Part shown: positions 3,182 through 61,261 of the stretch, in pieces
Numbering within the stretch: the first letter of the stretch is position 1
Layout: each line of letters starts with the position of its first letter
Assembly (NCBI GenBank): GCA_944390015.1
Contig: CALXOL010000007.1
Location: 1 to 64,000, forward strand
DNA: 64,000 nucleotides
Direction: 5' to 3'
Source: an uncultured Spirochaetaceae bacterium
GTDB lineage: Bacteria > Spirochaetota > Spirochaetia > Sphaerochaetales > Sphaerochaetaceae
Made by a program: the position numbers and the translations under genes
The notes under the pieces: model-generated
What the model saw: only the letters and a program-made list of their open reading frames with translations
Told to the model about the DNA's origin: nothing
Database searches by the model: none

Positions 3182-4402
3182 ATGATCCATGTAATTGAAG
3201 AGGCTAACCGCTGTCTGCAGTGCAAGAAACCCATGTGTACGACCGGTTGCCCTATTTCAACAAATATCCCGACAATGATCAGGCTTTTCAAGGAAGGCAA
3301 GGTCAAGGATGCGGGACAGATGCTTTTCGAGAATAATCCACTTTCCGTGGTATGTTCCCTGGTATGCGACCATAAGAAGCAGTGTGAGGGGCACTGCGTA
3401 CTCGCACGTAGGGGACAGGGAATTCACATCTCAAGCATTGAAAACTATATTTCCAATGCCGTTTTGGACACATTGGAAGTTCCAATGGCTCCAAAGAACG
3501 GCAAGATGGTGGCTGTCATTGGGGCAGGACCTGCCGGCATCACGATTGCAATCGAGATGGCTAAAAAAGGATATAGTGTTACGATTTTCGATTCCAAGGA
3601 CAAGATCGGAGGAGTTCTCCAGTATGGAATTCCTGATTTCCGTCTTCCAAAGACAATACTGGCACGCTATAAGAAGAAACTTGAGGCGATGGGAATCCTC
3701 GTACGCCCGAATACTACAATAGGAGGAGCTCTCGTCATCGATGACCTCTTTAGAGACGGATATAAGGCTATCTTCATCGGAACAGGAGTCTGGAGGCCGA
3801 AAAAACTCGCAGTTCCAGGGGAGAGCCTCGGAAACGTGCACTTCGCAATCGACTTCCTCGCAAATCCAAGTGCATACAATCTCGGAGAGGACATCGCAAT
3901 CATCGGTGCTGGAAACACGGCGATGGACGTGGCACGTACAATCTTAAGGAGCGGACACCACAACGTCACAATCTATGCACGCAGAAATAAGATCGATGCA
4001 TCCGAGGAAGAGAAGGACTATGCAGCCCTTGACGGTGCGAATTTCGAATACTGCATGAAGGTGGACCATATAACACCGGATGGCCCTGTCTTCAAGAAAA
4101 ATATCGTCGATGAGGAGGGAAACATCGTAGGAGAGAGCGAGGAGTTCTATCCCGTTCATGCTGATAACACTTTCATCGCAATCAGCCAGGGACCTAAGTC
4201 AAAGCTGGTAGATACCACAGAGGGTCTCAAGCCTTCAAAGAACGGCCTGCTGCTCACAAATGAGAAGGGAGAGACGACACACCCTGGAATATTCGCCGCA
4301 GGAGATGTCGTACTTGGTGCAAGAACAGTTGTAGAAGCAGTTGCTTATGCAAAAAAGGTTGCAGAAAGCATGGATGAATACATCAAAGGACTTAATGACT
4401 GA
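3182..4402 (+). CDS. GltD-like NAD(P)H flavoprotein oxidoreductase
   Basis: 406-aa FAD- and NAD(P)-binding oxidoreductase related to the glutamate synthase small subunit. The N-terminus carries a Cys-rich Fe-S motif (CLQCKKPMCTTGCP, then CSLVCDHKKQCEGHC). Two Rossmann motifs follow, VAVIGAGPAGI and IAIIGAGNTAMDVA, and a C-terminal FAD clamp FAAGDVVLGARTVVEAV. It is shorter than typical GltD (about 470 aa), and no glutamate synthase large subunit gene is adjacent, so it may serve another electron-transfer partner; the NfnB-like families are an alternative. An AGGAGG ribosome binding site and a downstream terminator mark it as a single-gene unit. Confidence 0.85.
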   Translation: MIHVIEEANRCLQCKKPMCTTGCPISTNIPTMIRLFKEGKVKDAGQMLFENNPLSVVCSLVCDHKKQCEGHCVLARRGQGIHISSIENYISNAVLDTLEVPMAPKNGKMVAVIGAGPAGITIAIEMAKKGYSVTIFDSKDKIGGVLQYGIPDFRLPKTILARYKKKLEAMGILVRPNTTIGGALVIDDLFRDGYKAIFIGTGVWRPKKLAVPGESLGNVHFAIDFLANPSAYNLGEDIAIIGAGNTAMDVARTILRSGHHNVTIYARRNKIDASEEEKDYAALDGANFEYCMKVDHITPDGPVFKKNIVDEEGNIVGESEEFYPVHADNTFIAISQGPKSKLVDTTEGLKPSKNGLLLTNEKGETTHPGIFAAGDVVLGARTVVEAVAYAKKVAESMDEYIKGLND

Positions 4403-4414
4403 TTCTTAATGACG

Positions 4415-4444
4415 AGAGCCGAGGAAAAAACCTCGGCTCTTTTG
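4415..4444 (+). terminator. Rho-independent terminator after the GltD-like gene
   Basis: Perfect 10-bp stem AGAGCCGAGG/CCTCGGCTCT (4415-4424, 4431-4440) with an A6 loop, followed by TTTT. Confidence 0.93.
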
Positions 4445-4454
4445 CTATACAAAG

Positions 4455-4477
4455 AAAAGGGAGCTCTGCGCTCCCTT
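4455..4477 (-). terminator. Terminator of the cytidylate-kinase-like gene
   Basis: On the minus strand the hairpin AAGGGAGC/GCTCCCTT with a 5-nt loop (plus 4457-4477) runs into TTTTCTTT. It lies just past the stop codon at 4491. Confidence 0.8.
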
Positions 4478-4490
4478 AAAAATACTCCTT

Positions 4491-5072
4491 TCACTCCCCT
4501 TTTGCGAAACTCACAATTGACTCTACGATGGCATCGATTCCAAGCTCGCTTGAGTAGACAAGATGGTAGCTCTCGCTCGTACCCCACTTCTTACCGGTAT
4601 AATGGTTATAGTAGTTCGCCCTCTGCTTGTCCATCTTTGTCAGATACTTCTTATAATCCTTCTCAATCTCATGATAGGTATCACGGACACGCTCAATCCT
4701 ATCTTCTAGCGGAGCATGGATGAATACGTTAAGAACATCCTTTCTCTCCCTGAGAACATAGTCCGCACAGCGTCCTACGATAACACAAGGCTCCTTATCA
4801 CTGACCTCTTTTATCACCTTTGACTGGGCGATATAGAGCTGATCCTCCAAAGGCAGGTTCCTGCTGTCGATATACATTCCGTAGAAGAATGACTGGATTC
4901 TCCTCATGTCAGTATCCTTGACATATTCCTCGGCAAAACCACTTTCCTTCGCAATAAGCTGAATCAAGAGCTTATCATAAAGTTTTATTCCTAGCTCCTT
5001 CGCAACTTTCTCAGCAACAGTTCTTCCTCCCGAGCCATGCTGACGTCCTATTGTAATAACTGGATATCTCAT
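4491..5072 (-). CDS. Cytidylate kinase-like family protein
   Basis: 193-aa P-loop protein of the cytidylate-kinase-like family (Pfam Cytidylate_kin_2). It opens with PVITIGRQHGSGGRTVAEKVAKE (a variant P-loop) and continues through VIVGRCADYVL and a LID-like Arg-rich segment. The family is similar to CMP kinase, but substrates are poorly established. The ATG at 5072 is preferred over an upstream in-frame ATG because AAGGAGG lies directly before it and a TTGCAT-N17-TAAAAT promoter (plus 5118-5123 and 5095-5100) would start transcription downstream of the earlier ATG. Single-gene unit with its own terminator. Confidence 0.85.
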   Translation of the reverse strand: MRYPVITIGRQHGSGGRTVAEKVAKELGIKLYDKLLIQLIAKESGFAEEYVKDTDMRRIQSFFYGMYIDSRNLPLEDQLYIAQSKVIKEVSDKEPCVIVGRCADYVLRERKDVLNVFIHAPLEDRIERVRDTYHEIEKDYKKYLTKMDKQRANYYNHYTGKKWGTSESYHLVYSSELGIDAIVESIVSFAKGE

Positions 5073-26107: not shown

Positions 26108-26136
26108 TTGACTAGGAGAATGAATTAATCTATTTT
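26108..26136 (+). promoter_or_regulatory. Promoter of the thiBPQ transcript
   Basis: TTGACT (26108-26113), 17-bp spacer, TATTTT (26131-26136). The predicted start near 26143 coincides with the 5' edge of the riboswitch P1 helix. Confidence 0.65.
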
Positions 26137-26140
26137 TGAT

Positions 26141-26214
26141 AGTGCCGGGGTGGCTTTTTGCCTGAGATCATACCCGTCAACCTGATCTGGATAATACCAG
26201 CGTAGGGAGCGACT
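26141..26214 (+). promoter_or_regulatory. TPP riboswitch (THI element)
   Basis: The conserved core is complete: CGGGGTG, GCCTGAGA, TACCCG, ACCTGATCTGGATAATACCA and GCGTAGGGA. P1 pairs AGTGC with GCgACT at the ends. It binds thiamine pyrophosphate and lowers expression of the downstream genes, here a thiamine transporter. Confidence 0.97.
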
Positions 26215-26228
26215 TGTATAAACCTTAA

Positions 26229-52324: not shown

Positions 52325-52398
52325 GCCTCCTTAGCTCAGCTGGCCAGAGCACGTGATTTGTAATCTCGGGGTCGTTGGTTCGAATCCGACAGGGGGCT
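52325..52398 (+). tRNA. tRNA-Thr (TGT anticodon)
   Basis: 74-nt cloverleaf. The acceptor GCCTCCT pairs with AGGGGGC. D arm AGCTCAGCTGGCCAGAGC, anticodon loop TTTGTAA (TGT), T arm GTTGGTTCGAATCCGAC. The anticodon stem has one T-T mismatch. CCA is not encoded. Confidence 0.93.
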
Positions 52399-52405
52399 TC
52401 AAAAG

Positions 52406-52430
52406 CGGTGTATTTTTACACCGTTTTTTT
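52406..52430 (+). terminator. Terminator after tRNA-Thr
   Basis: Stem CGGTGTA/TACACCG (52406-52412, 52417-52423), TTTT loop, followed by T7. Confidence 0.93.
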
Positions 52431-52431
52431 A

Positions 52432-52462
52432 TGAAAAAAAGAGGTGGACTTTTACCCACCTC
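52432..52462 (-). terminator. Terminator of the InlB-repeat gene
   Basis: On the minus strand the stem GAGGTGG/CCACCTC (plus 52441-52447, 52456-52462) is followed by T7 (plus 52434-52440). It lies back to back with the tRNA-Thr terminator. Confidence 0.88.
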
Positions 52463-52486
52463 CCATGAACGGATTTATTTCCCTCT

Positions 52487-53656
52487 TTATTTGGAAGAAA
52501 TTGTGAAATCATTTGACCAGGTATTTCCATCCGTGTCTTTAACAGTGACATGGATAGGAATCTGCCTGGAACTCTCAGTTCCCGTATATACGATTCTTGT
52601 AGAGACGGTTCCGATTCCTTTTGCCGGCAACCTCCTGAAATATAGGGTGTCATTGAGAACCGTCAGATCATCATCTGAGCAAGAGATGTTCACTTCAAGA
52701 TTCTTCAAATCCTCGCTTCCCGTATTTTCAACATTAAACGTCGCTGTCACCTGAATATTCTTAGGAAGTTTGGAATAAGGACTTGTGCTTAAATTGGAAA
52801 TCTCGACAGATGCATACAGAGCTTCAAACTGAGCTCCATTTCCGCGGACTGTGTAGCTCTCCTCCTCAGGTCCAAGGAACTCCCCTGTCGTAGAATCATA
52901 CCAACCGATGAATACATTAGTCCCATCTCCATTGCTGATTTGAGGAATTGCGATCTCATCCCCTTCACTTACACCTTCGCTGATCTCATCTATTCCGCTT
53001 ACATCATCCTTAAACGTAACGGCATTACGCCAGATGGCATAAAGAGTCTGATCCGTCAGAGGCATTGTAATCTCCTCTCCGGCAGAATAAGTAACATCAT
53101 CCTCGGTAACACCCCAACCTACGAGCTGTCCAAGGTTATTAGAATTAGCATTGATTGATTCCTGATCCGGAAGACGCACAGTATTACCTGGTTTGACACT
53201 AACACTCGAGCGGTAGCTGTAAGAGAAATTCTCTCCGCTGGTTGAGTAATCGAGAGACAGCGTCGGCCTGTAATATGGACTGATGCCATAAAGCCACTGG
53301 GCATCCTTTAAAGCCTCCTCTTCCGACTCTTCCACAATCAAGGCAAGAAGGGCATCACTCTGCTCTCTTGTTATCTTATATCCAGAGAGTGCCTTCAGCT
53401 CACCTCTGGCTTCAAGATAAAGATCCATATTATTCTTCGCATAAGCCTTCTCAAGCGATTTGTTCGTACTTGATAGCTCTTCACTTAAACGCTCTGTCAA
53501 ATCAGAATAGCTTTTAATCGCACCGTCTAGGTCTCCCTTTTCAACTGCCAAGGAAAAATCCTCATAAAGTCGCTGCGCCGATGCGGCAAACAGCATCGCT
53601 GATGAGAGAGCCAACATCATTAGAATTAAAACAATTTTTTTAGCTTTCATCGTCAT
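52487..53656 (-). CDS. Exported protein with InlB-type B repeats
   Basis: 389 aa. It has a signal peptide (about 1-26) and a helical N-terminal region (30-120; RLYEDFSLAVEKGDLDGAIK). Two Listeria-Bacteroides (PF09479-like) beta-grasp repeats follow: VGWGVTEDDVTYSAGEEI with LTDQTLYAIW, and VFIGWYDSTTGEFLG with FEALYA. An immunoglobulin-like C-terminal domain (VTATFNVENTGSEDLKNLEV) ends the protein. The layout suggests a surface or periplasmic adhesion-type protein; function is unknown. AAGGAG precedes the ATG. Confidence 0.78.
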   Translation of the reverse strand: MTMKAKKIVLILMMLALSSAMLFAASAQRLYEDFSLAVEKGDLDGAIKSYSDLTERLSEELSSTNKSLEKAYAKNNMDLYLEARGELKALSGYKITREQSDALLALIVEESEEEALKDAQWLYGISPYYRPTLSLDYSTSGENFSYSYRSSVSVKPGNTVRLPDQESINANSNNLGQLVGWGVTEDDVTYSAGEEITMPLTDQTLYAIWRNAVTFKDDVSGIDEISEGVSEGDEIAIPQISNGDGTNVFIGWYDSTTGEFLGPEEESYTVRGNGAQFEALYASVEISNLSTSPYSKLPKNIQVTATFNVENTGSEDLKNLEVNISCSDDDLTVLNDTLYFRRLPAKGIGTVSTRIVYTGTESSRQIPIHVTVKDTDGNTWSNDFTISSK

Positions 53657-59703: not shown

Positions 59704-60097
59704 TACGCTTATCCTTCTTAAGCCAATCAAGAATAAATGTGATTGCAAGAGATGCGAAAACGCTTAGGAGAAACAGTGCGGAAAAAGGAAGATAGAACAC
59801 GCTCTGGCTCTCATCACGCCCCTTATCCTCTATAGGCGCAGCCGATGATGCTCTGTTTACCGCCACTACCTCCTCTCGTCCAAGGGAAAGGAAATTCTCT
59901 CCCATGCCTCCACCTTCTTCGGCTTTAAGCATCTCAAGTTCCGCTTCCCTACGCTCAACCTCATCTTTCAAGTCGTCAGAATATTTTCTCAACTGCCGGT
60001 TCACAAAGTAACCATTTGCGCTTAAAAACGTTACAGATAGTGAAAATATTATTACGAAACTTAAGGTGAAAGTAAGCAATTTCGTTCTTGCTAACAT
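59681..60097 (-). CDS. Hypothetical two-helix membrane protein
   Basis: 138 aa. An N-terminal hydrophobic helix (about 7-27), a charged helix (about 33-62; RKYSDDLKDEVERREAELEM), a low-complexity linker and a C-terminal helix (about 103-124) ending in a basic tail. A periplasmic loop is likely. No family recognised. It overlaps tsaC by 23 bp. TTGCAT-N17-TATAAA lies 12 nt before the ATG, with no Shine-Dalgarno. Confidence 0.6.
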   Translation of the reverse strand: MLARTKLLTFTLSFVIIFSLSVTFLSANGYFVNRQLRKYSDDLKDEVERREAELEMLKAEEGGGMGENFLSLGREEVVAVNRASSAAPIEDKGRDESQSVFYLPFSALFLLSVFASLAITFILDWLKKDKRNAKRNNR

Positions 60098-60172
60098 CTT
60101 ATTTCTTAGTTTATAATATTCTTTGAATTAACATGCAATAGTATTGTATGAGAATGCATTGGGGGCGAATGG

Positions 60173-60239
60173 CTAACAAATGACACTTTCATGCATATAG
60201 CTGTGTGTTAGTAGGTTCTCATGGGAGCCTGATGAAAGT
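60173..60239 (+). promoter_or_regulatory. Structured 5' leader with possible pseudoknot
   Basis: ACTTTCAT (60185-60192) pairs perfectly with ATGAAAGT (60232-60239) and encloses a hairpin AGGTTCT-CATG-GGAGCCT (60213-60219, 60224-60230). CTAACA (60173-60178) can pair with TGTTAG (60206-60211), crossing the first helix, which would make a pseudoknot or an alternative fold. The ribosome binding site CCGGAGG begins 2-3 nt after the closing helix. Confidence 0.5.
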
Positions 60240-60253
60240 AACCGGAGGAAATA

Positions 60254-61261
60254 GTGTCTAAATCTAACAGTTCTTTGAAGCTCATTATTTCTAGTGTGGT
60301 TATATCTGCCATCGTTCTCGGAATATTCGCAGTCATATTCCTTTTATATCTGGTACCTGCCTATCAGATTACGAATGATAGCATCTATAATGGCCTAATT
60401 AAGTTCTTTCCCGTCTTAATCGGATTGATTCTGATTCAGATAGGAATCATCGTCGGTAGAAGGAATGATAGGGAAGAAGATAAATCCGATCTTCTGCCTC
60501 CGAATGCATATGATAAGCCTCTCTATCAGGAAGCAAAGGATGATCCTAGTGCTGTCGAAGGTGTAAATTATGCTAAATTCGACAAGAGTGAAAGCAATGA
60601 AAACGTCACGGTCAAGGAAGTTCCAGTAGAGGTTGTTAAGGAAGTCGTAAAAGAAGTTCCTGTCGAAGTCGTTAAAGAAGTTGTCAGGGAAGTTCCTGTC
60701 GAGGTCATAAAAGAAGTCATCAAGGAAGTCCCTGTAGAGGTTGTTAAGGAAGTTCCGGCCGCTCAGGAAGCTGAGAAGACCATAGAGGTCGAGGTTCCTG
60801 TTGAGGTTATAAGGGAAGTTCCTGTTGAAGTAGTCAGGGAAGTTGAAAAAGTAGTTGAGAAGATTGTCGAAGTCCCTGTAGAGGTCATAAAGGAAGTTCC
60901 TGTTGAAGTAGAGAAAGAGGTGATAAAAGAGGTCGCAGGTGCGGTCGCAGAACCTCGCTATCTTAACCTTGAAGACACGATTAACGCAGAGATTGAATCG
61001 GCCAATACTTACGGATATGACTTAACCGTAGTAGCAATTAAAGCCAGAGAGAATCTTACAAGCATGGGAATCGAAGAGTTCTTCGGAGAAGACACGCTGG
61101 CATTTGATGGCGATGGAGGTAACATCTTCGTCGTTCTTCCTATGTATAACGAGATTGAAGCTAAATTCGCTCTTAGGAAGTTTGAACCACTCTCAGTTGT
61201 CCAGTATAAGGACGGAGATGCGGAAAAGCTTCTTTCAGCGCTGAAGAAAGGACTTAAGTAA
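60254..61261 (+). CDS. Membrane protein with PVEV repeats and GGDEF-like C-terminal domain
   Basis: 335 aa. Two membrane helices (about 8-35 and 47-68) are followed by a hydrophilic stretch and, from about 118 to 228, eight repeats of an EVPVEV unit separated by Lys/Arg/Glu spacers (VKEV, IREV). The C-terminal part (about 235-335) reads YGYDLTVVAIKAREN and FDGDGGNIFVVLPMYNEIEA, reminiscent of a degenerate GGDEF fold without the active-site sequence. The start is GTG at 60254, after GGAGG. Function unknown; the leader suggests regulated translation. Confidence 0.75.
   Translation: MSKSNSSLKLIISSVVISAIVLGIFAVIFLLYLVPAYQITNDSIYNGLIKFFPVLIGLILIQIGIIVGRRNDREEDKSDLLPPNAYDKPLYQEAKDDPSAVEGVNYAKFDKSESNENVTVKEVPVEVVKEVVKEVPVEVVKEVVREVPVEVIKEVIKEVPVEVVKEVPAAQEAEKTIEVEVPVEVIREVPVEVVREVEKVVEKIVEVPVEVIKEVPVEVEKEVIKEVAGAVAEPRYLNLEDTINAEIESANTYGYDLTVVAIKARENLTSMGIEEFFGEDTLAFDGDGGNIFVVLPMYNEIEAKFALRKFEPLSVVQYKDGDAEKLLSALKKGLK

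Follow-up and report, generated by a model that had tools for sequence, protein, structure and literature searches.

The window (the 64-kb stretch of DNA analyzed here) carries on its forward strand a gene for a 335-amino-acid protein that begins with a GTG codon at 60254 (60254 to 61261) and is preceded by a leader of approximately 129 nt (60125 to 60253). This leader is homologous to leaders of 165 to 170 nt in three related species (L015, L016, and L017; 69 to 77% DNA identity, measured against the window or L016), which were combined with it in alignment A1. A pattern scan placed a promoter-like site on the same strand at 60088 to 60117, consisting of TTGCTA (60088 to 60093), an 18-nt spacer, and TATAAT (60112 to 60117), with 10 of 12 positions matching. 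Since a −10-like hexamer also lies upstream of the gene in the orthologs (30 loci), transcription probably starts near 60124. The initial annotation, which covered positions 60173 to 60253, relied on transcription from upstream of 60192, and the start predicted from the sequence agrees with that. Its fold began at 60173 and so left out the first 48 nt of the leader, whose inclusion alters the predicted structure. A scan of the leader for an intrinsic terminator found none.

Protein encoded downstream of the leader

The gene product had been described as a GGDEF-like membrane protein, a description borne out by structural prediction. It has two hydrophobic N-terminal stretches, VPVEVxKEV repeats, and a C-terminal domain with a predicted GGDEF fold; across 30 orthologs the protein length is 304 to 394 amino acids. 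Searches of Pfam and NCBIfam with the 335-amino-acid protein returned nothing above the cutoff, and the Pfam GGDEF family was not reported. An AlphaFold2 model derived from 30 aligned C-terminal domains (pLDDT 84.9) had a diguanylate cyclase as its top Foldseek match (E = 2.9e-4). In VIA-align comparisons, the model matched 6tts_B with a Z score of 13.1 (rmsd 5.1, 108 residues) and 4zve with a Z score of 12.8 (rmsd 2.2, 99 residues), and GGDEF entries accounted for nearly all of the 50 matches listed. The GG[DE]EF active-site signature is absent: in the window the corresponding hairpin has the sequence FDGDGGNIFVVLP, and in 29 aligned relatives it is degenerate as judged by eye. A GGDEF fold that lacks this signature points to a degenerate GGDEF domain. 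The genome contains four PF00990 matches, three of them above the cutoff, and cyclic-di-GMP biology is possible in this organism; nothing ties cyclic-di-GMP to the leader.

Predicted fold of the full-length leader

The window leader, folded from 60125 up to its start codon, reached −36.3 kcal/mol, an energy that none of 500 dinucleotide shuffles matched (z = −3.17). A composition regression gave a less favorable result than the shuffles (z = −1.6; rank 309 of 3,194 windows scored). The stretch from 60158 to 60275, which lacks the first 33 bases of the leader, folded no better than its shuffles (z = −0.02).

Two hairpins make up the predicted structure. P1 is a long, imperfect 5′-terminal hairpin (60127 to 60212) that contains P1a (60128 to 60136 paired with 60203 to 60211) and P1b (60145 to 60152 paired with 60188 to 60195), and it begins 2 to 3 nt from the predicted 5′ end of the transcript. 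P2 (60213 to 60230) is a hairpin of seven pairs, AGGTTCT-CATG-GGAGCCT. The Shine-Dalgarno sequence GGAGG (60244 to 60248) follows without a conserved pairing partner. Its predicted unpaired probability in the window is only 0.34 to 0.51, and its predicted ground-state accessibility ranges from 0.01 to 1.0 between species with no common pattern.

Conservation of P1 and P2

P1 and P2 together comprise 24 pairs, and 95.8% of the 96 cells are paired in the four species of alignment A1, compared with 30 to 54% in slid controls. The consensus fold had a z score of −5.1; none of 500 versions of the alignment with shuffled columns was as good. P2 is kept in all four species, with one-sided G-U changes. 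Overall, alignment A1 contains no pair with changes on both sides and nine further pair types that arise through one-sided change; a slightly longer P1 (alignment A3) includes one pair with both-sided change. The near invariance of the 5′ strand of P1, which may reflect overlap with the promoter region, explains why double compensatory change is scarce there. On the 3′ strand, five of the seven variable columns swap A and G opposite U, and pairing is kept in all but one cell of these five columns.

When the strands of P1 were compared with shuffled strands, they paired better in five of the six long leaders known among the orthologs (P = 0.0005 to 0.006). The values were 0.002, 0.0035, 0.0005, and 0.006 for the set of four formed by the window and L015 to L017, 0.0025 for L019, and 0.07 for L018. 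Folds of single sequences were more uneven; L015 exceeded its shuffles (z = −2.43), the signal was weak in L017 (−1.17) and L016 (−0.76), and P1 is missing from the minimum-energy fold of the L017 leader extended by 12 coding nt.

A middle hairpin lies between P1 and P2 at approximately 1421 to 1458 in L015 and 1424 to 1458 in L017, and it is missing from the window. Its outer stem in L015 to L017 (GAAC/GTTC, GGAC/GTCT, and GGGC/GTTT) looks compensatory by eye. The numbers of shuffles, out of 500, that folded as low were 0 for L015, 308 for L016, and 56 for L017, so that only the L015 hairpin is significant.

The proposed pseudoknot

The initial annotation had proposed that two interlocking helices form a ligand- or protein-sensing translational switch that closes 2 to 3 nt before the ribosome binding site. 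Both helices are present in the sequence: helix 1, CTAACA/TGTTAG, joins 60173 to 60178 with 60206 to 60211, and helix 2, ACTTTCAT/ATGAAAGT, joins 60185 to 60192 with 60232 to 60239. As read from the sequence, their a-b-a′-b′ order is a true H-type arrangement. The gap is right when measured to CCGGAGG (2 nt) and too short when measured to GGAGG (4 nt). Of 20,000 shuffles of the 81 nt that preserved dinucleotides, 29 contained an interlocked pair of 6 and 8 bp, yet tiles of equal size revealed 13 separate plus-strand places with such a pair in the window (39 of 6,392 tiles when both strands are counted). The arrangement is thus unlikely for one chosen stretch but turns up about a dozen times in this 64-kb window.

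The initial annotation would be contradicted by helices that are neither conserved nor compensated in relatives, and this is what the comparison showed. Across four leaders, the 14 pairs of the pseudoknot model are formed in 75.0% of 56 cells. Helix 1 is paired in 58.3% of its cells and is not conserved; none of its six pairs is intact in every species, and two of them are lost in three of the four. In helix 2, 87.5% of 32 cells are paired, and four of the eight pairs never vary. Its core, TCAT/ATGA, is the same in all four species and is the main remaining thread for reading the leader as a switch. Three pairs of the model show change on both sides, a number that 66 of 500 shuffles also reached. 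Tested as a duplex against shuffles, helix 2 gave a P value of 0.04 in the window and 0.40, 0.37, and 0.30 in the three relatives, and its strands paired as well across species as within one.

Both helices compete with P1, helix 1 with P1a and helix 2 with P1b, and in the full-length window leader each has a predicted probability of 0.0. TGTTAG is predicted to pair with TTAACA of the 5′ end, at the base of P1 (probability, 0.89 to 0.999), and not with CTAACA (0.0). Predicted pair probabilities for helix 2 are 0.0 to 0.004 across all four leaders. What stands from the initial annotation is a structured leader in front of a GGDEF-fold membrane protein; the pseudoknot is not conserved, and the sensing switch built on it is unsupported. 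A leader folded without its own 5′ end had yielded a convincing yet unsupported pseudoknot.

Distribution and probable origin of the long leader

A match to the protein was found in 43 of 48 genomes of the genus and in 50 of 100 relatives, and leaders were compared at 30 fetched ortholog loci. The distance from the −10-like hexamer to the start codon is 95 to 177 nt in 6 of these orthologs and 28 to 48 nt in the remaining 24; the value of 177 nt, for L016, was read from the sequence and lies outside the range of the hexamer scan. The six long leaders measure 88 (L018), 100 (L019), 129 (window), 165, 166, and 170 nt, and they form a single clade (support, 99/99). All six of these genes (L014 to L019) start with GTG, and all 24 others (L020 to L043) start with ATG. 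Leader growth and the change of start codon therefore go together.

Many short leaders contain a simpler element. In L025 to L043 (n = 19; 33 to 39 nt before the start codon), a conserved GCGTA-type strand lies right after the promoter, and a variable, roughly complementary strand lies ahead of the ribosome site. When the downstream part was shuffled, 9 of the 19 hairpins had a P value below 0.05 (median, 0.051), and the combined Fisher value was 3.8e-8, which is overstated because the species are related and not independent. Four of these leaders (L028, L035, L036, and L037) did no better than the average shuffle, and of L020 to L024, folded singly, L024 alone formed a clear hairpin (z = −2.33). 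In the distant orthologs L092 to L094, the leader sequences are unrelated, and their folds were no better than shuffles (z = −0.65, 1.58, and −0.97). A small hairpin in short leaders appears to be common across the genus, with the long leader an elaboration of one clade, and we infer that P1 descended from the short-leader hairpin.

Covariance models of the leader (R1 and R2) gave four clear matches in the 48 genomes of the genus, which are the leaders used to build the models, and a weak match in G010 (E = 0.013 and 0.0012). Further matches in G044 (0.2), G014 (0.49), and G043 (0.7) are chance-like. Among 139 genomes of the family, five matches had an E value of 0.1 or less, all of them in the same genus, and matches were located only upstream of the gene for the GGDEF-fold protein. 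The genome analyzed here holds a single copy of the leader. A dispersed RNA family or mobile repeat was considered and ruled out, since the models match only the leaders from which they were built plus the weak G010 locus. A search of a viral collection found no relative of the leader. A wider search of genome contigs returned 12 loci and no new long leader, because 8 of the 12 appear to correspond to genomes of the genus already in the comparison.

The leader had also been said to match no recognized riboswitch consensus, and Rfam agrees. At the gathering threshold, Rfam 15 gave no leader match in the window or in the loci of five relatives; at E values up to 10, the window leader gave only a chance microRNA match on the opposite strand.

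Interpretation and alternatives

Because the pseudoknot is not kept in relatives, the element looks like an ordinary structured leader, a minor regulatory element specific to a small group of gut spirochetes, rather than a new riboswitch. We favor, with somewhat better than even confidence, an expanded 5′ untranslated hairpin leader, specific to the lineage, through which mRNA stability or translation is tuned. The promoter at 60088 to 60117 would drive a transcript whose 5′ end leads into P1, then P2, and then a Shine-Dalgarno region free of conserved pairing. A constitutive role is the likeliest: P1 may protect the mRNA end against 5′-dependent decay, and the leader may also, or instead, set spacing and tune how ribosomes load on a weak GTG start codon. 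The long leader presumably arose from a much shorter one; other species of the genus have a small hairpin in the equivalent place.

A possible but doubtful account is that the leader simply lengthened through neutral insertions and that its hairpins are functionless in themselves. The wide variation in length (88 to 170 nt), the absence of one entire hairpin from the window, and the two of six single-sequence folds that do not rise above shuffles (L016 and L017) all fit such growth, but the z score of the consensus fold (−5.1), the A/G swaps that preserve pairing on the 3′ strand of P1, and the genus-wide recurrence of a hairpin in the equivalent place argue against it. Least probable of the alternatives is a leader peptide or coupled upstream open reading frame, in which the GGGAG of P2 would drive an ATG at 60232 and the frame would overlap the GTG start. 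The motif GGGAG-N4-ATGAA is invariant in four long leaders, and the ATG always lies 22 nt before the start codon. However, GGGAG is inside the P2 stem, the arrangement is missing from L018 and L019, the few codons outside the ribosome site vary freely, and the peptide, which ends as MKVTGGNSV in the window, has no stop within the 12 coding bases examined in each of the other three. Other upstream frames that follow the GGGG run of P1 (MANK, MAS, and similar) were rejected; L017 lacks the ATG, and the spacing is 1 to 4 nt.

A translational switch that responds to a ligand or protein could still be built from helix 2 without helix 1. In such a switch, TTTCAT would alternate between the ATGAG of P1b and the ATGAAAG before the Shine-Dalgarno sequence, the latter state would hinder ribosome loading, and helix 2 would interlock with P1a in place of CTAACA. 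The two states are mutually exclusive, neither the ATGAA ahead of the Shine-Dalgarno sequence nor the TCAT of P1 varies among four species, and helix 2 is paired in 87.5% of its 32 cells and includes one position that appears as U-A, U-G, and C-G. We nonetheless judge this switch unlikely: the duplex is unremarkable in the relatives (P = 0.30 to 0.40) and shows no preference for strands of the same species, helix 2 is nearly absent from the predicted ensembles of all four leaders (0.0 to 0.004), Shine-Dalgarno accessibility is patternless across species, the searches gave neither a terminator nor an Rfam match, and the element is confined to a single small clade and a single gene. A more elaborate version, which we regard as highly improbable, is a young lineage-specific RNA switch in which selection in the four long leaders has kept P1b and the ATGAA-TTCAT helix as alternative, mutually exclusive states. 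It would sense a metabolite, a protein, or a cyclic dinucleotide, would set translation of the degenerate GGDEF protein, and would have been assembled within one genus from a simple ancestral hairpin.

The favored hairpin leader is a modest example of how a 5′ leader can grow severalfold within one bacterial genus while its promoter stays in place. If a function were shown, the orthologs would offer a natural series for one gene, with the start codon 28 to 177 nt from the −10 box.

Comparison with known leaders

The cyclic-di-GMP riboswitches, GEMM-I and GEMM-II, come to mind from the context, given a GGDEF-fold protein downstream and GGDEF proteins encoded in the genome. Unlike these riboswitches, the leader has no match to a family model even at an E value of 10, and the protein lacks the GGDEF signature. 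Stem-loops at the 5′ terminus stabilize mRNAs in the ompA, papA, and aprE leaders. Like the hairpins of those leaders, P1 would sit at the very 5′ end of the predicted transcript or close to it, ahead of an unrelated Shine-Dalgarno region; the leader sequence is unrelated to theirs, and a stabilizing role here would be by analogy. Stabilizers of this 5′ stem-loop type are named in titles cited by PMC3997798. Class I preQ1 riboswitches are described in PMC11625349 as small H-type pseudoknots at the Shine-Dalgarno sequence, which is the geometry that had been proposed for this leader, an H-type pseudoknot ending at the ribosome site. In contrast to that class, the pseudoknot of the window leader is not conserved, the leader has no Rfam match and differs in size and fold, and the downstream gene is not a recognized queuosine gene.

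Other structured elements occur elsewhere in the window. A TPP riboswitch at 26136 to 26225 scores above the Rfam gathering threshold. Relative to composition, the regions 52361 to 52570 (z = −4.9) and 4321 to 4530 (z = −4.1) contain some of the most stable 129-nt folds in the window. The former adjoins a tRNA (52325 to 52398), and the latter folds strongly on either strand, a pattern like that of a long inverted repeat.
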